From contig JACOXG010000001.1 in assembly GCA_016176405.1 (NCBI GenBank), forward strand, positions 1 through 48,249: a stretch of DNA of 48,249 nucleotides, in the 5' to 3' direction. Origin of the DNA: Candidatus Daviesbacteria bacterium (lineage in GTDB: Bacteria; Patescibacteriota; Microgenomatia; Daviesbacterales; UBA10151). The notes below the pieces were generated by a model that was not told where the DNA came from, searched no databases, and worked only from the letters and a program-made list of their open reading frames with translations. The position numbers and the translations under genes were made by a program. Positions 10,794-48,249 of the stretch are shown here, piece after piece (position 1 is the stretch's first letter; each line of letters starts with the position of its first letter).

Positions 10794-11377
10794 AAGTTTT
10801 GTCCTCCTCCGGCAACAGAGGCGTTGGCTTTAATAGTGAAACGGATAACGCCTTCCTCAAGTCCCACGGAAGATAAAGATACACCAGAAAAAAAGCTATC
10901 TTGTTTCAGGTTGGCTTGAAAGGCAGCCAAATCATTATTATTTTGGGCCTGACCATTAATTTGGATTGAAATTTTATCAAGTGACTTTTCCAAAGAGAGA
11001 GATCGTAGGGAGACTGAGACAGGCATTTGATCTGCAATTTTTTTAAGTATTAGGGCATAATCAGGGTTAGACTGAAGAAAGCCGTTAATTGATGAGAGCT
11101 TAAGTTGAGTTTGTCTAATGAGAATTTCAAATGGTTGAAGATTTTTTATATATGGTAGTTGATTAACTTCAATCTCCTCTTTAATTTCAGCAATGTCTGC
11201 ATCTAATTTAAATCTGAAAACAAAGGCAATTAGTACTACAGCTTCCACCAAGATTAAGATATAACGGCCAGTGGATAGCAGCCAGCGAAGCAAAATGGTG
11301 GGGATTTTTTCAGGGTTGCTTTGAGGTTTGAGTAGATCAAGACGAATTAAAATACGTAAATTTTTCTTGGCAGGCAT
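10790..11377 (-). CDS. pilN: PilN-like type IV pilus assembly protein
   Basis: 195 residues: a cytoplasmic basic N-terminus (AKKNLRILIRLDLLKPQ, like the PilN segment that binds PilM), one TM helix (GRYILILVEAVVLIAFVFRF), a short coiled coil and a Fimbrial-assembly (PilN) domain with LKKIADQMPVSVSLRSLSLE and ISIQINGQAQNNNDLAAFQA. The start is fixed by TATAAT ending 6 nt before ATG. It heads an operon pilN-pilO-small membrane protein-FN3/dockerin protein. A glycine/alanine-rich tail ends the protein. No pilM is adjacent. Confidence 0.8.
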   Translation of the reverse strand: MPAKKNLRILIRLDLLKPQSNPEKIPTILLRWLLSTGRYILILVEAVVLIAFVFRFKLDADIAEIKEEIEVNQLPYIKNLQPFEILIRQTQLKLSSINGFLQSNPDYALILKKIADQMPVSVSLRSLSLEKSLDKISIQINGQAQNNNDLAAFQANLKQDSFFSGVSLSSVGLEEGVIRFTIKANASVAGGGQNL

Positions 11378-11383
11378 AGATAC

Positions 11384-11389
11384 ATTATA
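11384..11389 (-). promoter_or_regulatory. -10 TATAAT of the pilN operon
   Basis: Perfect TATAAT on the minus strand 6 nt before the pilN ATG, placed in the short gap after the rpsT stop. It implies a leaderless pilN mRNA separate from rpsT. Confidence 0.6.
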
Positions 11390-11397
11390 CTAGAAAA

Positions 11398-11631
11398 TTA
11401 TCTGCTCTTTTTGGATAATCTGGATTTTAATCTGGCAGCCTTATTTGGGTGAATTAATTTAACTTTGGCTGCTTTATCTAGGGCAGAAAATACTGTTTGC
11501 AAATCTTTGACAGATTTAGAAAGACGGGCCTTTTTAATTAAAGCCTTAAGGGTATTTTCTCGTTTCTTGTTACGAGCGGTTCTGGTCTTATCTTTCCTAA
11601 CTTTTTTTATGGCTGAGCGTATAATTGGCAT
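11398..11631 (-). CDS. rpsT: 30S ribosomal protein S20
   Basis: A 77-residue, strongly basic protein with the S20 pattern: MPIIRSAIKKVRKDKTRTAR at the N-terminus and AAKVKLIHPNKAARLKSRLS at the C-terminus. It binds 16S rRNA helices 9 and 44 in the small subunit. The start is the first ATG. A TATAAT lies about 16 nt upstream and a TATCAT 7 nt upstream on the minus strand. It precedes pilN but that gene has its own -10. Confidence 0.95.
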   Translation of the reverse strand: MPIIRSAIKKVRKDKTRTARNKKRENTLKALIKKARLSKSVKDLQTVFSALDKAAKVKLIHPNKAARLKSRLSKKSR

Positions 11632-38267: not shown

Positions 38268-38903
38268 ATGCGTACCGTTGGACAAATTTTAAAAGAAACA
38301 CGTGAGGCAAAATTTTATACTCTTGATGAGATAGAAAAGATCACCAAAATTAGGAAAGAGTTACTGGAGGCTTTGGAGGCAGATCAATATAATAAACTAC
38401 CTCCCTCTACTTTCGTGCAAGGTTTTATCAAAAACTATGGCAAGTTTTTAGGGTTGGATCCGCATAAACTTTTGGCAATTTATAGAAGAGAATTTTCTGA
38501 TAAAAAAAATCCTCCCAGAATTTTGGAATCTTTTACCAATCCTGTAGATAAAAAGGTGTTTAAAATAACTCCAGCCAAATTTTTGGGAGCAATCATTTTA
38601 ATACTGCTTTTGACATTTTTTGCCTATCTTTGGTTTGAATATCGCTTTTTAACTGAGTCTCCTTTTCTGGTGGTGGAGCAGCCCACCAATCAACAAAGTA
38701 TAGAGAAGAAAGAAGTAGTGGTTTCAGGTAGAACAGATCCTGAGGCTAAAGTCAGTATAAATAATCAAGAGATTCATGTTGATATTTATGGTAAATTTTC
38801 TCAAGAAATCCAACTGACAGAGGGTAGTAATACTATTTTAATTACAGCTATTGGTAAAAGTGGTAAAATGACTAAAATAGAACGGGTTGTGTTTTTAAAG
38901 TAA
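38268..38903 (+). CDS. RodZ-like HTH membrane protein with extracellular Ig-like domain
   Basis: 211 residues: an N-terminal cytoplasmic HTH_25 domain as in RodZ (TVGQILKETREAKFYTLDEI, LEALEADQYNKLPPSTFVQG, FIKNYGKFLGLDPHKLLAIY), one TM helix (FLGAIILILLLTFFAYLWF, about 105-124), and an outer beta domain of bacterial Ig/glucodextranase-B type (VVVSGRTDPEAKVSINNQEI, SQEIQLTEGSNTILITAIGK). RodZ links MreB to the wall machinery; whether MreB exists here is not visible. It follows tsaC after 21 nt. Confidence 0.85.
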   Translation: MRTVGQILKETREAKFYTLDEIEKITKIRKELLEALEADQYNKLPPSTFVQGFIKNYGKFLGLDPHKLLAIYRREFSDKKNPPRILESFTNPVDKKVFKITPAKFLGAIILILLLTFFAYLWFEYRFLTESPFLVVEQPTNQQSIEKKEVVVSGRTDPEAKVSINNQEIHVDIYGKFSQEIQLTEGSNTILITAIGKSGKMTKIERVVFLK

Positions 38904-40166: not shown

Positions 40167-41978
40167 ATGAGTTCTAAAGATATTAGAGAAAAATATATTA
40201 AGTTTTTTGTGGGTAATGGACATAAGCAAATTCCTCCTGCAAAGTTAGTTCCTGAAAATGATCCTACTACTCTTTTTACCTCTTCTGGTATGCAACCTTT
40301 AGTACCATATTTACTTGGGCAAGAGCATCCTGAAGGGAAAAGATTAGTTAATTCTCAACCTTGTTTTAGAGCAGAGGATATTGAGGAAGTTGGGGATAAT
40401 AGACATACCACTTTTTTTGAGATGTTGGGTAATTGGTCCTTGGGAGATTATTTTAAAAAAGAACAGTTGGAATGGTTTTGGGAATTTCTTATTAATGAGT
40501 TGAGGTTACCAAAAGAAAAATTATATGTCAGTGTATTTGAGGGCAATACTGATGTCCCAAAAGATAATGAGTCTTATGAGATTTGGAAGAGTTTAGGAGT
40601 AGCTGAGGATCATATTTATTTTTATGGAGTTGATAAAAACTGGTGGTCTCGCTCCGGCGAGCCGGATAAAATGCCTGAGGGAGAAATTGGTGGTCCAGAT
40701 TCAGAAGTTTTCTATGATTTTGACACGCCACATGATGAAAAATATGGGAAAGAATGTCACCCAAACTGCCAGTGTGGAAGATTTTTGGAAATTGGCAACT
40801 CTGTTTTTATTCAGTACAAAAAAACTAAAAATGGTTTAGAGGAATTACCACAAAAAAATGTGGATTTTGGTGGAGGATTAGAAAGACTAACAGCAGTCAG
40901 TTTAGATAATCCAGATATTTTCCAAACAGATTTATATATGGACATAATTAAGAAATTAGAGGGAATATCAGATAAAAAATATGAAACAGAAAATAAAGCC
41001 CCAATGCAAATAATTGCTGATCACCTAAAGGCCGCCACTTTTATGATTGTTGATGGAGTAGAACCATCTAATAAATTACAAGGATATATTTTAAGAAGAC
41101 TACTTAGAAGATCTGCCATTAAATTAAGACAACTCAATAAAATTATATCACTAAACATACTTGTTTCAATGATTCAAATCATTTTAACAATCTACAATAA
41201 AGATGGACAGACAAAGTTAGTGGAGAAAATAGTAACTGATGAGATTAATAGATTCCAAAAAACTTTGGATCACGGTTTAAAAGAAATTGAAAAGATTGAA
41301 AAAATTGATGGAAAGAAAGCTTTTGATTTATATCAGACTTTTGGATTTCCCTTTGAGGTAACTGAAGAATTATTTAGACAAAAAGGGCAACAAATCGACA
41401 AGGAACAATTTAGGCAAGAATTTGAGAAACATCGGGAACTTTCCAGAACTGCCTCTGCCGGAGTTTTTAAAGGAGGGTTAGCTGATCACTCTGAGGTGGT
41501 TACCAAATACCACACAGCAACCCATCTTTTACATCAGGCCTTAAGAGATGTATTAGGACCAGAAGTTTTTCAGAAAGGGTCTAATATTACTGCTGAAAGA
41601 TTGAGATTTGATTTTTCGCTGAATCGAAAAATGACTGAGGAGGAAATAAAACAAGTAGAGGATTTGGTTAATCAGAAAATTAAAGAGAATTTGAAAGTTG
41701 ATCATATGATTATTCCATTAGATGAGGCAAAGAAAATGAATGCTATAGGTTTATTTGATGAAAAATATGCGGACAAAGTGAGCATTTATGGAGTAGGCCC
41801 TAAATATGAGTTAGATCCAAAAGCCAAGGATCAAAGGGACAGAGCTGGTTATTATTCTCTAGAATTTTGTGGAGGACCACATGTAGAACAAACAGGAATA
41901 ATTGGAGGCATTAAAATTACTAAAGAAGAAGCAGTCTCATCCGGCATGAGAAGAATTCGTGCCCAGCTTGTTTCCTAA
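40167..41978 (+). CDS. alaS: alanyl-tRNA synthetase, short form
   Basis: 603 residues (E. coli 876). The class II catalytic core is complete: LFTSSGMQPLVPYLLGQEHP, RAEDIEEVGDNRHTTFFEML, GNWSLGDYFKKEQLEWFWEF, VDFGGGLERLTAV. The tRNA-recognition helices and the editing domain follow, with TATHLLHQALRDVLG (HxxxH) and EFCGGPHVEQTG (CxxxH), so mischarged Ser/Gly should still be cleared. The C-Ala/DHHA1 domain is missing; the protein ends GMRRIRAQLVS. Short AlaRS forms are known in reduced bacteria. Confidence 0.96.
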   Translation: MSSKDIREKYIKFFVGNGHKQIPPAKLVPENDPTTLFTSSGMQPLVPYLLGQEHPEGKRLVNSQPCFRAEDIEEVGDNRHTTFFEMLGNWSLGDYFKKEQLEWFWEFLINELRLPKEKLYVSVFEGNTDVPKDNESYEIWKSLGVAEDHIYFYGVDKNWWSRSGEPDKMPEGEIGGPDSEVFYDFDTPHDEKYGKECHPNCQCGRFLEIGNSVFIQYKKTKNGLEELPQKNVDFGGGLERLTAVSLDNPDIFQTDLYMDIIKKLEGISDKKYETENKAPMQIIADHLKAATFMIVDGVEPSNKLQGYILRRLLRRSAIKLRQLNKIISLNILVSMIQIILTIYNKDGQTKLVEKIVTDEINRFQKTLDHGLKEIEKIEKIDGKKAFDLYQTFGFPFEVTEELFRQKGQQIDKEQFRQEFEKHRELSRTASAGVFKGGLADHSEVVTKYHTATHLLHQALRDVLGPEVFQKGSNITAERLRFDFSLNRKMTEEEIKQVEDLVNQKIKENLKVDHMIIPLDEAKKMNAIGLFDEKYADKVSIYGVGPKYELDPKAKDQRDRAGYYSLEFCGGPHVEQTGIIGGIKITKEEAVSSGMRRIRAQLVS

Positions 41979-42035: not shown

Positions 42036-44348
42036 ATGAGTTTAATAGACCGTCTGTCTGCCATTTTACCTTTTGGAAAAGAGCGAGAAAAGGTAGAATA
42101 TTATTTTGCTCTAAACATTTCTTCTGAGGAGCTAACCGCTGCCCTTTGGTCAATCGAGGGATCTAAATTACAAATTTTGGAAACTGCCTCTGAAAGATAT
42201 AGCTCTATTGATCAGATTACCCCAGTGGCTGATAGACTTTTGGATCAGGTCTTGGGCAATAGGATGATTGAACCTGATCAAATTCTGTTTGGAGTACCTG
42301 ATTCTTGGTTAGTTGATGATAATTTAAAGGATGAATATTTAAAGATACTTAGGGATACGGTCAAAGATTTGGAACTTAATCCGATGGCTTATGTGGCCAC
42401 CTCCCATGCCATCATTCACTTTTTGGAAAAACAAGAGGGAGTTCCCACCACTGCCATTTTGGTAGGTTTTAATAAACATCACCTGGAAGTGATTGTGGTG
42501 AGGGCAGGTAAATTAGATGGAGCCAAAAGTATTTCCCGCGGGGATAACAGCGGAATTGATATTGAAAAGGCCTTACTAACCTTTTCTGATGTGGAAACCT
42601 TGCCATCCAAAATCCTAATTTTTGGAGAAGATGAAAATGCTTTGGAAAAACTAAAAACGCAGCTTTTATCTTTTCCCTGGATGTCCAAATTGTCATTTTT
42701 ACATTTCCCCAAAATCGAGATTTTAAAAGGAGAGATGGAAATTAGAAGCGTCTGTTTTGCTGGAGCATCAGAGATCAAATCTGATGTGGTTTATATTGCT
42801 ACTACTACCCCATCATCAGTGACCAAACCTTTAACTGCTACTCAAGAGGAAAAAGCACCAATTGAATCTAAAGAGGGAGATTTTGGATTTATTGCTGGAG
42901 ATATTTCAGAGGCCGATGAGTCGGCGGGTCAAAGTCCCAGTGAATCAGAGGGACAAAGTATCAGTGAATTAGCAGGTCAAGATATTGGTGTTCCAGAAGA
43001 AGGATTGAAAGATACTGAGATGCTAGAGGAGGGAGCTGGAGAATTAGAAGGAGAAGGTATGACAGAAGAAGAGATAGCTGAAGCAGAAAATTTTCAACGC
43101 TCCGAGATAATTCCTGCTCCGGCTGAGCCGCCTGTGGTTAGCGGGAGAAAGACAAAATTACCAGCATTTTTTTCCAAATTACCGATACCTTCATTTAACA
43201 GATTTATCCCCAAAAAGCTTCTGCGGATGCCGATTGTATTAGGTTTGATTGTTTTAGTGGTTGGTATTTTGGCTGCCTACCTATTTTTGGTCAAAGCCGA
43301 GGTGGCAATTTTTGTAGAACCGCAAATTTTGGAAAAAGATACTCAGGTGACAGCTGACCCTGCTCAAAAAGAAGTAGATGAGGAGGCCAAAATTATTCCA
43401 GCTGAGACAGTTTCAACAGAAGTGTCAGGGACTCAAAAAGCTGAAGCCACTGGTAAAAAGACCATTGGTGATCCTGCCAAAGGTACTGTTAATATTTACA
43501 ACAAGACAAACTCTGAAAAAACTTTTAGCAAGGGGACAGTTTTGGTAGGTCCCAATAATATCAAATTTAGCCTGGATGTTTCTATCACGGTGGCTTCTCA
43601 ATCTGCCAAGGTGAGTGGTATTGATTATGGTACTGTTAAAGCTGCTGTGACAGCACAAGAGGTAGGGGCTGATGGTAATATCGCCTCTGGTAGTAAGCTG
43701 ACATTGAGTAATTTTTCTGAATCTGAATATGCGGCAGAGGCTGAGGGGAATTTTTCTGGAGGTACTTCCAAAGAAGTGACAGTTGTTTCTGATGCGGATC
43801 AAAAAAGACTACTGGCTGCTTTGGCTTCGGATTTAAGAAGAGAGGCTCAAGAAAAACTGCAAGAACAAATGGCAGGTAAAAAGATTTTAGAAGAAGGTTT
43901 ATCTGAGCAGATTGTCAAAAGAAGTTACAGTAAAAATATTAATGATCAAGCTGACGAGTTTTCCTTAAATTTAACTGTCAGGTTTTCTGGTTTGACCTTT
44001 GATGAGAAAGATTTAAAGCTGATTGTTTCTAAGCTGGTCACCACTGATATTCCAGAGGGTTTTGAATTAAATTTGGAGGAAACTGAAACTCAGGCTGATA
44101 TTTCCAAATTGGAGAAAGATAAGTTAATCTTTTTAGCCAGATTTAGAGCCAAGATCATACCAAAACTGGATACTGAAGCAATTAAAAAAGAGATTAGAGG
44201 CAAGACTGCCTCTCAAGCCATAAATATTTTGAAAAATCATCAGGGTGTTTTAGGGGCAGAAATTAAACTGATGCCTAATTTGCCCACCTTTTTGCAAATT
44301 CTGCCATTTTTGGAAAGAAATATTACCGTTTCCGTGGGATTGAAATGA
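42036..44348 (+). CDS. actin-fold (PilM/FtsA-like) - TM - baseplate J-like fusion protein
   Basis: 770 residues. N-terminal part (about 20-260): an ASKHA/PilM-like fold with EYYFALNISSEELTAALWSI, QILFGVPDSWLVDDN, VATSHAIIHFLEKQEG and TTAILVGFNKHHLEVIVVRA. A long acidic linker (about 270-370, rich in E, S and G) follows, then a TM helix (about 395-420, LGLIVLVVGILAAYLFLV), then an outer part with VEPQILEKDTQVTADPAQKE, AKGTVNIYNKTNSEKTFSKG and AKVSGIDYGTVKAAVTAQEV that resembles baseplate J/gp47-type beta domains. It overlaps the sortase start by 4 nt. It may couple a cytoplasmic filament-like domain to a surface scaffold. Confidence 0.75.
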   Translation: MSLIDRLSAILPFGKEREKVEYYFALNISSEELTAALWSIEGSKLQILETASERYSSIDQITPVADRLLDQVLGNRMIEPDQILFGVPDSWLVDDNLKDEYLKILRDTVKDLELNPMAYVATSHAIIHFLEKQEGVPTTAILVGFNKHHLEVIVVRAGKLDGAKSISRGDNSGIDIEKALLTFSDVETLPSKILIFGEDENALEKLKTQLLSFPWMSKLSFLHFPKIEILKGEMEIRSVCFAGASEIKSDVVYIATTTPSSVTKPLTATQEEKAPIESKEGDFGFIAGDISEADESAGQSPSESEGQSISELAGQDIGVPEEGLKDTEMLEEGAGELEGEGMTEEEIAEAENFQRSEIIPAPAEPPVVSGRKTKLPAFFSKLPIPSFNRFIPKKLLRMPIVLGLIVLVVGILAAYLFLVKAEVAIFVEPQILEKDTQVTADPAQKEVDEEAKIIPAETVSTEVSGTQKAEATGKKTIGDPAKGTVNIYNKTNSEKTFSKGTVLVGPNNIKFSLDVSITVASQSAKVSGIDYGTVKAAVTAQEVGADGNIASGSKLTLSNFSESEYAAEAEGNFSGGTSKEVTVVSDADQKRLLAALASDLRREAQEKLQEQMAGKKILEEGLSEQIVKRSYSKNINDQADEFSLNLTVRFSGLTFDEKDLKLIVSKLVTTDIPEGFELNLEETETQADISKLEKDKLIFLARFRAKIIPKLDTEAIKKEIRGKTASQAINILKNHQGVLGAEIKLMPNLPTFLQILPFLERNITVSVGLK

Positions 44349-44989
44349 TTAGTAGTATTAAATTATTATCTTTGGGGTTTTTATCAGTGGGAATAATCAC
44401 TTTAATGCAGGTGGTTTTACCGATTATTTCATTTAAACTTTGGGAAGTAGGTCAAAGTGTCAATGAGGTCATGTTGATTAGCCCAAAGCCATTGAAAAAT
44501 TCTCAAGTCTTGGGAATTTCTATTAAAAATGATGGTAATTTTCCCACAATTTATTCCGAGATAAAAAGGGAAAATAGCCCCAGCTACTTAGAATTTAGTT
44601 TATCAGTGCCTACTTTAAAGTTAGATCAATTTAAGGTTTTGGTTGATAGTAATGATTTAAATGAGGCTTTAGCTCACTTGCCTGGTTCAGCCTTGCCTGG
44701 GGAAAGAGGGAATGTTTTTATTTCTGGTCATTCAGCCTTAAGTTGGATTTTTAAAAATAAAAAAGCTCCCTTTGCCAATTTGATGGATTTAAAAAAAGGA
44801 GATGAAATGTATGTTCAGGTGGGTGGATCAAAGTTTAGCTATGAGGTGGTTGGGGTAAAGATTGTTGATCCGATGGATTTATCAGTGATTGCCCCGCCTG
44901 ATAATTTGGGAAGGTATATTACTTTGATGACTTGTGTGCCTCCTGGTTTAAATACCAAAAGACTTGTGGTATTGGGTAAAATAATATAG
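44345..44989 (+). CDS. sortase
   Basis: A 214-residue membrane transpeptidase: an N-terminal TM helix (about 7-30), then the sortase barrel with LEFSLSVPTLKLDQFKV, HLPGSALPGERGNVFISGHS (catalytic His), MDLKKGDEMYVQVGGSKFSY, and TLMTCVPPGLNTKRLVVLG (catalytic Cys and Arg). Sortases cut LPxTG-like signals and attach surface proteins or build pili. No clear LPxTG protein is in the window. Translational coupling (ATGA overlap) to the actin-fold/baseplate-J-like protein suggests they work in the same surface system. Confidence 0.9.
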   Translation: MISSIKLLSLGFLSVGIITLMQVVLPIISFKLWEVGQSVNEVMLISPKPLKNSQVLGISIKNDGNFPTIYSEIKRENSPSYLEFSLSVPTLKLDQFKVLVDSNDLNEALAHLPGSALPGERGNVFISGHSALSWIFKNKKAPFANLMDLKKGDEMYVQVGGSKFSYEVVGVKIVDPMDLSVIAPPDNLGRYITLMTCVPPGLNTKRLVVLGKII

Positions 44990-44999
44990 AGTTTTTGGC

Positions 45000-45371
45000 A
45001 TGAAATATTTAGGAATAGATTTTGGGTTAAGAAGGATTGGTTTGGCTACTTCTGAAGGAAATATTGCTTTCCCTTATAAAATAGTAGAAGGTAAAAATTT
45101 TTCTGAAATAGTGGAAAAAATTAAAAAGGAGGCTGAAGGATTTGATAAAGTAGTGGTAGGTATGCCACAAGGCAAGATGGGTCAAAATGTTTTAGGATTT
45201 ATAAAAGCTTTAAGAAAGAGCGGTTTAGATGTAGTTGAAGCTGATGAAACTTTATCTTCCCAAAAAGCAGTTTCTCAAATGATCGAATTAAATGTACCAA
45301 AGGAAAAACGTCGTATGAATGATGCATACTCAGCTGCAGTGATTCTGCAGGGTTATTTAGATAATTTATGA
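45000..45371 (+). CDS. ruvX: RuvX/YqgF family Holliday junction resolvase-like nuclease
   Basis: 123 residues of RNase H fold: MKYLGIDFGLRRIGLATSEG (first Asp), DKVVVGMPQGKMGQNVLGFI, VVEADETLSSQKAV (Glu) and KRRMNDAYSAAVILQGYL (last Asp). The family processes the 5' end of pre-16S rRNA and may resolve Holliday junctions. It sits between sortase and mltG with a 4-nt overlap to mltG; the alaS-ruvX-mltG neighbourhood is common in bacteria. Confidence 0.93.
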   Translation: MKYLGIDFGLRRIGLATSEGNIAFPYKIVEGKNFSEIVEKIKKEAEGFDKVVVGMPQGKMGQNVLGFIKALRKSGLDVVEADETLSSQKAVSQMIELNVPKEKRRMNDAYSAAVILQGYLDNL

Positions 45372-46324
45372 AGAAAATTTTGATTCCACTGATTATTTTG
45401 CTGCTGCTTATTATCTCCCTGATTGGTTGGTGGAATTCTAATTTGGCTCCGGTTTCTCAAGAAAGGGCAGAAAAAACAGTCCTTATTGAAAAGGGGAAAA
45501 GTTTATCTGAGATTGCCAAAATTTTAAAAGAGGAAGGTTTAATCAAATCAGAACTTATCTTCAGTTTATACACCCGCCAACAAGGCTTAGGTAATAAACT
45601 TTCTGCCGGGGTTTTTAAACTATCTCCTGCTATGTCTACCCCAGAGATCATTAAGGCTTTAACAGGTAGGCCGGCTGAGGCATGGGTGACTTTAATTGAG
45701 GGATGGAGGATTGAAGAGATGGCAGAGGAATTAAATTCCAAATTACAAATTCCAAATGATAAATTTTTGGAAGTAGCTAAAGAAGGTTATATGTTTCCTG
45801 ATACATATTTATTTGCTCCGGATGCCACTGCTGAGCAGATAGTTAAAAAATTAAGAAATACTTTTGATCTTCGTTTTTCAGAAGAGTTGAGAGCTAAAAT
45901 CCGAGCCCAAGGTTTGACTGAAGAGCAAGGAGTCATTTTAGCCTCAATTGTGGAAAGAGAAGCCAGATCTGATAAAGCCAGAACAGAGATTGCCTCGATT
46001 CTTTTAAAAAGATTACAAATTGGCATGGGTTTAAATGCCGATGCTACCTTACAGTATATTTTAGGTTATCAGGAAGATGAAAAGAGTTGGTGGACCAAGC
46101 ATTTAACTAGAGAAGATAAAAAAATAGATTCTCCATATAATACCTATTTATATAAAGGTTTACCCCTAAGCCCAATCTGTAATCCAGGACTATCCTCTTT
46201 GGAAGCTGTGGCCAATGCCGATCCAAATACTCCCTATCTATATTATTACCATGATTCTAAAGGCAACTCTTATTATGCCAAAACCTTGGAAGAACACAAT
46301 ACAAATGTAGCTAATAATCCCTAA
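45368..46324 (+). CDS. mltG: endolytic murein transglycosylase MltG
   Basis: 318 residues. An N-terminal TM helix (KILIPLIILLLLIISLIGWW), a LysM-like domain (EKGKSLSEIAKILKEEGLIK), then the YceG catalytic domain: GWRIEEMAEELNSKL, YMFPDTYLFAPDATAEQIVK, LASIVEREARSDKARTEIAS with the catalytic Glu, and LNADATLQYILG, SPYNTYLYKGLPLSPICNPG near the end. It cuts nascent glycan strands and sets their length. Converges with the next gene, overlapping by 4 nt. Confidence 0.95.
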   Translation: MKKILIPLIILLLLIISLIGWWNSNLAPVSQERAEKTVLIEKGKSLSEIAKILKEEGLIKSELIFSLYTRQQGLGNKLSAGVFKLSPAMSTPEIIKALTGRPAEAWVTLIEGWRIEEMAEELNSKLQIPNDKFLEVAKEGYMFPDTYLFAPDATAEQIVKKLRNTFDLRFSEELRAKIRAQGLTEEQGVILASIVEREARSDKARTEIASILLKRLQIGMGLNADATLQYILGYQEDEKSWWTKHLTREDKKIDSPYNTYLYKGLPLSPICNPGLSSLEAVANADPNTPYLYYYHDSKGNSYYAKTLEEHNTNVANNP

Positions 46325-46740
46325 GGTGAAGATTCATTTCCAGAATCTGTAGATTCAGGAGGTTCTGGAGATGGAGTGGGTGTTGGTGTTGGAGTCGGTG
46401 TTTCAGTTGTGGAGGGAGGCGCATCGGTGGGTGTTGGGGTAGAAGTTGGAGTGGGAGTAGCAGTTGGGGTAGGGCTGGGAGCTTTTGTAGGTGAGGATAC
46501 TTTTGGTTTGGTAGTACTTTTGGGAGTAGGTGTTGGAGTGGGAGAGGGAGAAAATTGGGTAGTAGTTGATAATACATTTGGATCAGTGAGTTTATCTCCT
46601 TTATTTTCTTCATTTAAACTTTTATTATATGAGCCTGAAAATACCACTGAGTTTATTAATAAAATCCCGCCTGCAGAAGAGCCAACTAATATTAAGATTA
46701 AAACAGCTGTCAGTATACTCATGGGTTGGATCCTGTTCAT
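46321..46740 (-). CDS. membrane-anchored Thr/Pro-rich surface protein
   Basis: From ATG 46740 (MNRIQPMSILTAVLILILVG) about 139 residues; ATG 46755 would add five. A single signal anchor (about 8-30) is followed by a short polar region and a long low-complexity tail built of PTPTPTP, SPTKAPSPT and TETPTPTP units to the C-terminus. There is no folded domain, so it is likely a flexible, possibly glycosylated wall spacer. It is divergent from rpoB. The G/V-rich reading on the other strand is only its shadow. Confidence 0.65.
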   Translation of the reverse strand: MNRIQPMSILTAVLILILVGSSAGGILLINSVVFSGSYNKSLNEENKGDKLTDPNVLSTTTQFSPSPTPTPTPKSTTKPKVSSPTKAPSPTPTATPTPTSTPTPTDAPPSTTETPTPTPTPTPSPEPPESTDSGNESSP

Positions 46741-46748
46741 GCTATCCC

Positions 46749-46778
46749 TTGACATAGTACCATAAATTGTGGTATTTT
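46749..46778 (+). promoter_or_regulatory. rpoB promoter TTGACA-18-TATTTT
   Basis: TTGACA 46749-46754 and TATTTT 46773-46778, 18-bp spacer, giving a leader of about 80 nt. Confidence 0.55.

Positions 46779-46867: not shown

Positions 46868-48249
<1,382 letters not shown>

Follow-up and report, generated by a model that had tools for sequence, protein, structure and literature searches.

The 770-residue protein encoded near the end of the analysed stretch of DNA (48,249 nucleotides, hereafter the window) unites in one chain an envelope pair that otherwise is made by two genes and that is present in nearly all sampled genomes of the Patescibacteria (CPR). Here we name the two components ACT, for the separate gene encoding the actin part, and BPJ, for the barrel protein. 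The genome carrying the window comprises about 0.95 Mb on 33 contigs.

Architecture of the fused protein

The fused gene and its surroundings consist of the following features, all on the forward strand:

38268..38903, +, RodZ-like HTH-TM protein, upstream of the 770-aa gene (Pfam, NCBIfam)
40167..41978, +, alaS, conserved upstream neighbour (locus maps)
42036..44348, +, fused ACT-BPJ gene, 770 aa (ORF call, homologue searches)
42093..42785, +, actin-fold cytoplasmic domain, residues ~20-250, without subdomain 1C and nucleotide motifs (AF2, Foldseek, motif comparison)
42786..43229, +, acidic low-confidence linker, residues ~251-398 (AF2 model, composition)
42885..42908, +, conserved linker motif GF(x3-4)D[IVL], residues 284-291 (fused homologues versus shuffles)
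43230..43292, +, single TM helix, residues ~399-419 (sequence, outer-part model)
43452..43775, +, barrel resembling phage baseplate J, residues ~473-580 (profiles, structure superposition)
43791..44345, +, C-terminal alpha/beta region, residues ~586-770, without a clear structural match (model, Foldseek)
44345..44989, +, sortase, 214 aa, N-terminal TM, catalytic H129/C197/R206 (Pfam, NCBIfam, alignment)
45000..45371, +, ruvX (YqgF), conserved downstream neighbour (Pfam, locus maps)
45368..46324, +, mltG (YceG lytic transglycosylase), conserved downstream neighbour (Pfam, locus maps)

The layout given in the preliminary description is borne out: the stop of the 770-aa ORF overlaps the start of the sortase ORF by four bases (ATGA), and an acidic stretch that is modelled with low confidence separates the actin fold from a single TM helix. 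Basic residues precede this helix, which places the N-terminus inside the cell. The outer region consists of an all-beta and an alpha/beta part and was modelled with a mean pLDDT of 94.7.

AF2 modelling with 74 homologues confirmed the actin fold that had been proposed for the N-terminal part (core pLDDT ~98 for residues ~20-250), and Foldseek returned 696 hits at E<=0.001, with E values down to 1.6e-9 and hundreds of actin-superfamily structures among them. PilM from Pseudomonas gave the closest superposition in the PDB (TM 0.56). The window protein does not match any NCBIfam model and thus does not reach the cut-off of the FtsA equivalog TIGR01174. The nucleotide-binding residues have degenerated at all three sites, with NISSEE in place of DIGTE (phosphate-1), VGFNKHHLE in place of DVGGGTTD (phosphate-2) and FGEDE in place of CGGGS (adenosine). 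Furthermore, subdomain 1C is gone from the fused form while it is kept in stand-alone ACT and in the split forms of the class. The earlier idea of a filament-like ATPase domain is therefore not supported for this protein; as the fused form has lost both the 1C-like insert and the ATP motifs, its actin domain is, judging from sequence, very probably a pseudo-ATPase.

The outer barrel is recognized at the level of the family. Taken alone, the window sequence matches Baseplate_J (PF04865) with an E value of 0.0024, under the Pfam cut-off, and as a single sequence it did not retrieve a match from the PDB. PF04865 is matched by 66 of the 74 homologues (best 2.1e-8) and the PHROG baseplate wedge family phrog_6 by 39 of the 74, while a profile search of the PDB led to diffocin TRI-2 (3.5e-6). 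The suggested resemblance to baseplate J is thus upheld and is confined to a J-barrel of ~110 residues. Since ~109 residues superpose on phage J proteins at 2.8-3.0 A and the whole-chain TM is ~0.2, one barrel and not a whole baseplate protein is the common unit. BPJ differs from phage baseplate J, gp47 and diffocin TRI-2 in being membrane-anchored, in the absence of other tail parts and in remaining domains that are not superposable. The beta-barrel domain of GlxA likewise matches the outer barrel (ten members by Pfam, and also by Foldseek) and ring formation should therefore not be read from the barrel alone. Recent transfer from phage was considered and rejected: when 50,697 phage records were searched by tblastn with the outer domain, no E value was better than 6, and the loci seen contain housekeeping genes.

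Distribution of the ACT-BPJ pair and its relation to FtsA and PilM

Homologues of the 770-aa protein occur in 181 of 187 genomes of the class Microgenomatia. A profile of the outer domain found 277 of 287 genomes of the phylum, mostly with a single copy, and outside the class the BPJ outer domain is present in 253 of 263 genomes. There, ACT is a separate gene of ~415 aa located upstream of BPJ in 33 of 38 loci (E 1e-26 to 2e-6), as counted from gene maps with profile A1, which was built from fused proteins only. A profile derived from ACT itself added a 34th locus (L155) and matched the N-terminus of the window protein at 1.4e-18. Beside BPJ, ACT was not detected in four of the 38 loci (L172, L174, L178 and L179), pointing at an ability of BPJ to work without ACT. 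The BPJ ORFs outside the class are shorter (~420-700 aa in the loci read) and most start with a different alpha/beta segment, which is lost from the fused form. In L160, L163, L175 and others this conserved segment spans 70-80 aa and reads DEITSVIDKLKK...IVLVIPK...LLQSVVNLKLLK...; two pieces of it that were tried did not match Pfam.

Retention of the outer-domain gene, as a single copy, in ~96% of the sampled genomes of a phylum with strongly reduced genomes suggests that ACT-BPJ is likely important to these cells, and offers a tangible way into the question of how the envelope of such minimal cells is organised. Should cultivated Saccharibacteria carry the pair, it would be testable now by their published genetics (PMC10633639). 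We did not find a description of the pair in the text of open-licence papers, although supplementary tables may list its genes as unnamed families; apparently, the pair has never been described in papers.

Which actin-like family does ACT belong to? Four stand-alone ACT proteins reach 87-123 bits with the FtsA model TIGR01174 versus 34-48 bits with PilM, all of them under the FtsA equivalog cut-off of 175.85. A true FtsA above this cut-off is present in 59 of 59 sampled genomes, and many of those from outside the class have a second match to the FtsA model, at 80-125 bits, that adjoins BPJ. The window's own genome has FtsA, MreB and PilM elsewhere; by eye, its FtsA gene adjoins an FtsZ-like gene, and PilM resides on contig 17, followed by genes of PilN and PilO size. 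When profile A1 was run over nearly all of this genome, it matched the window protein and nothing else; FtsA, MreB and PilM were not hit. Given that true FtsA, MreB and PilM are all encoded in addition, we regard ACT as a distinct FtsA-related family. In an actin tree, the N-domains of the window protein and of other fused proteins group with the split forms of the class with a support of 99. This group falls within ACT, separate from FtsA and MreB; support is weak (56) for the fork between ACT and the others, and a single long row represents PilM in this tree.

Stand-alone ACT resembles FtsA (TIGR01174, PF14450) in its actin fold, its ATP motifs and an insert like 1C/SHS2. Most of the proteins from outside the class feature ALDIGTEFVKA at phosphate-1, DVGGGTTDIAV at phosphate-2, CGGGSxLP at the adenosine site and the 1C-like insert, and stand-alone ACT often ends, as FtsA does, with a possible amphipathic helix. 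ACT differs from FtsA in scoring under the equivalog cut-off, in co-occurring with true FtsA and in being paired with BPJ; the window protein differs further by the loss of 1C and the ATP motifs. ATP use is not uniform across ACT, since the motifs are partly eroded in some stand-alone families (e.g. L157 and L158). The original assignment to a PilM/FtsA-like domain consequently stands as far as the fold is concerned, with the best structural fit on PilM, and is to be narrowed for sequence, which is closer to an FtsA-like family and not to PilM.

The structural fit raises the question of whether the fusion is a GspL-like part of a type IV pilus or type II secretion machine. Like the PilM-PilN pair, ACT-BPJ combines an actin-like soluble protein with a bitopic membrane partner encoded beside it, and the fused protein shares with GspL the order of an actin-like cytoplasmic domain, one TM helix and an outer domain. 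Pili are, moreover, near-universal and host-linked in the phylum (PMC6744442, PMC12206443). We nevertheless consider such a role unlikely: a separate PilM with its own PilN/PilO-sized neighbours is encoded on contig 17, the sequence of ACT is nearer to FtsA, and the partner is BPJ and not PilN. In place of the ferredoxin-like periplasmic fold of GspL and PilN, Foldseek found a J-barrel, which is followed by an alpha/beta region, and instead of a secretion operon or pilus genes the locus contains alaS, ruvX and mltG.

Gene fusion, linker and sortase in Microgenomatia

Seven loci of the class remain unfused (L083, L093, L099, L103, L111, L114 and L115). They form two families with separate ACT and BPJ and without sortase, and offer natural controls for the fusion. 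Their ACT proteins keep the 1C-like insert and have degenerate ATP motifs. In the barrel tree, all fused proteins fall into a single group (support 59) and the split ones are found outside, beside other classes. The trees thus show that the pair was fused once in the class, with modest support on the barrel tree. The fused form can be seen as an experiment of nature, with an actin-type ATPase turned into a passive adaptor.

The linkers of the fused homologues contain on average 17% D/E. A motif GF(x3-4)D[IVL] is present in the linkers of 52 of 73 fused homologues versus 0.4 expected from shuffled linkers, and some of the misses reflect a misplaced TM helix in the delimitation of the linker. 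The motif is frequent within the class only and sporadic outside (3/38). AF2 did not dock it onto the actin domain (motif pLDDT ~57-60); it is probably a docking peptide for a partner or a neighbouring copy.

The sortase matches PF04203 at 3.2e-23 and its triad of H129, C197 and R206 is invariant in 68 sequences. With the intact triad and a TLxTC plus R signature it resembles the class C and E cysteine transpeptidases, but it reaches only 73.5 and 66 bits with the corresponding models (cut-off 160), stays under every class-specific NCBIfam cut-off and differs in being encoded with BPJ. In 67 of 73 fused loci the gene lies directly or closely downstream of BPJ, and an identical 4-bp overlap is seen in 14 of the 67; conservation of the gene pair thus holds among fused loci. 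A sortase was found at none of the seven split loci of the class and at none of the 38 loci outside. It is also missing from six fused loci, two of which are at contig ends (L059 and L084); L046, L047 and L049 form a subclade of the window's family, and L113 branches off before all other fused proteins in the tree, so that the fusion may predate the sortase. The proposed coupling to a sortase is thus real for most fused loci and not integral to the pair. A published survey had already noted a sortase family that nearly all Microgenomates possess and that has a patchy distribution in the rest of the CPR (PMC6744442).

By eye, the 770-aa protein does not carry a sorting signal. The genome encodes three sortases, and a genome-wide look for substrates yielded two candidates, neither of them beside the window's sortase: a 382-aa LPATG protein on contig 9 and, on contig 24 and with no sortase next to it, an LPNTG protein of 118 aa. 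The former ends with LPATG, a TM segment and a basic tail and adjoins another sortase (contig C9:9944-11092 and 11226-11606); the two are likely a dedicated sortase-substrate pair.

The J-barrel homology, the adjoining sortase in this class and the epibiontic life of cultivated members of the phylum (PMC11665869) would fit a host-contact or secretion scaffold, in which J-barrels form an outer baseplate-like ring at the site of host attachment and the sortase attaches adhesins; this would be a broader version of the proposal in the preliminary description. We judge this improbable, as only a single phage barrel is shared, other tail or contractile genes were not noticed at the BPJ loci read, and a sortase adjoins BPJ in the fused clade only.

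Genomic neighbourhood and proposed function

The pair resides in an alaS-ACT-BPJ-ruvX-mltG arrangement, followed in some lineages by mreBC or a LysM-CHAP protein. Near the fused loci, alaS and mltG are each found in 67 of 73 cases; outside the class, the numbers are at least 28 of 38 for alaS and at least 17 of 38 for mltG. In L166, mreB and mreC follow mltG, and MreB is also encoded in L162 and L184. A LysM-CHAP protein occurs within a few genes in nine other lineages (two members confirmed by Pfam). At the window locus, FtsK and the RodZ-like protein are encoded upstream of alaS. The genes alaS, ruvX and mltG adjoin in other bacteria also, and the link to mltG may thus be inherited and not functional. 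A ~425-aa ORF recurs between sortase and mltG in L052, L058, L067, L092 and others, often where ruvX was not seen; considered as a component of the pair, it looks unrelated and by eye resembles a pyrimidine-nucleoside/AMP phosphorylase.

The theme of the neighbours (mltG, mreBC, LysM-CHAP, RodZ-like, FtsK) is wall growth and shape, and this favours an envelope scaffold. FtsK upstream in this genome and the relationship of ACT to FtsA, including the 1C insert of the stand-alone proteins, could also indicate a divisome accessory with ACT as a duplicated FtsA acting in septation and BPJ as its FtsN-like bitopic partner. This appears quite improbable in view of a true FtsA in all 59 sampled genomes and of MreBC and LysM-CHAP neighbours that suggest general wall growth over division.

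Our best explanation, to which we give somewhat less than an even chance, is that of a membrane-spanning wall scaffold turned nucleotide-free adaptor, the 770-aa protein being the one-polypeptide form of the envelope pair. ACT would be an actin-fold ATPase related to FtsA, and BPJ would cross the membrane once and project the phage-J-like barrel outside. In the ancestral state, ATP-bound ACT, possibly polymerising and held at the membrane, would gather BPJ molecules and thereby position their outer domains beside cell-wall enzymes. In the class, the trees show a single fusion of the genes, the ATP motifs and 1C have been lost, and the actin domain may now serve as a permanent nucleotide-independent adaptor like the cytoplasmic domain of GspL. 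The linker motif probably provides the docking to a partner or neighbouring copy, and the adjacent sortase probably serves to anchor surface proteins of the LPxTG type in the vicinity and not to act on BPJ. It is conceivable, though on balance doubtful, that all Patescibacteria inherited ACT-BPJ from their ancestor as an envelope machine that is unknown elsewhere. ACT, as the fourth member of the actin family in addition to FtsA, MreB and PilM, would then organise or drive outer J-barrel assembly for wall growth or host contact, and in one class the machine would have been converted into a static fusion linked to a sortase.

Two further ORFs are located downstream of mltG. Convergent with mltG, a 144-aa ORF (46321-46755, reverse strand) encodes a long tract rich in Pro, Thr and Ser as well as one TM segment, and is overlapped by an ORF on the forward strand. 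An rpoB-like ORF (46868-48139) comprises 423 aa only and stops 110 bases short of the contig end; as several relatives reach at least ~1,000 aa, the reading frame has likely been shifted close to the end of the contig.
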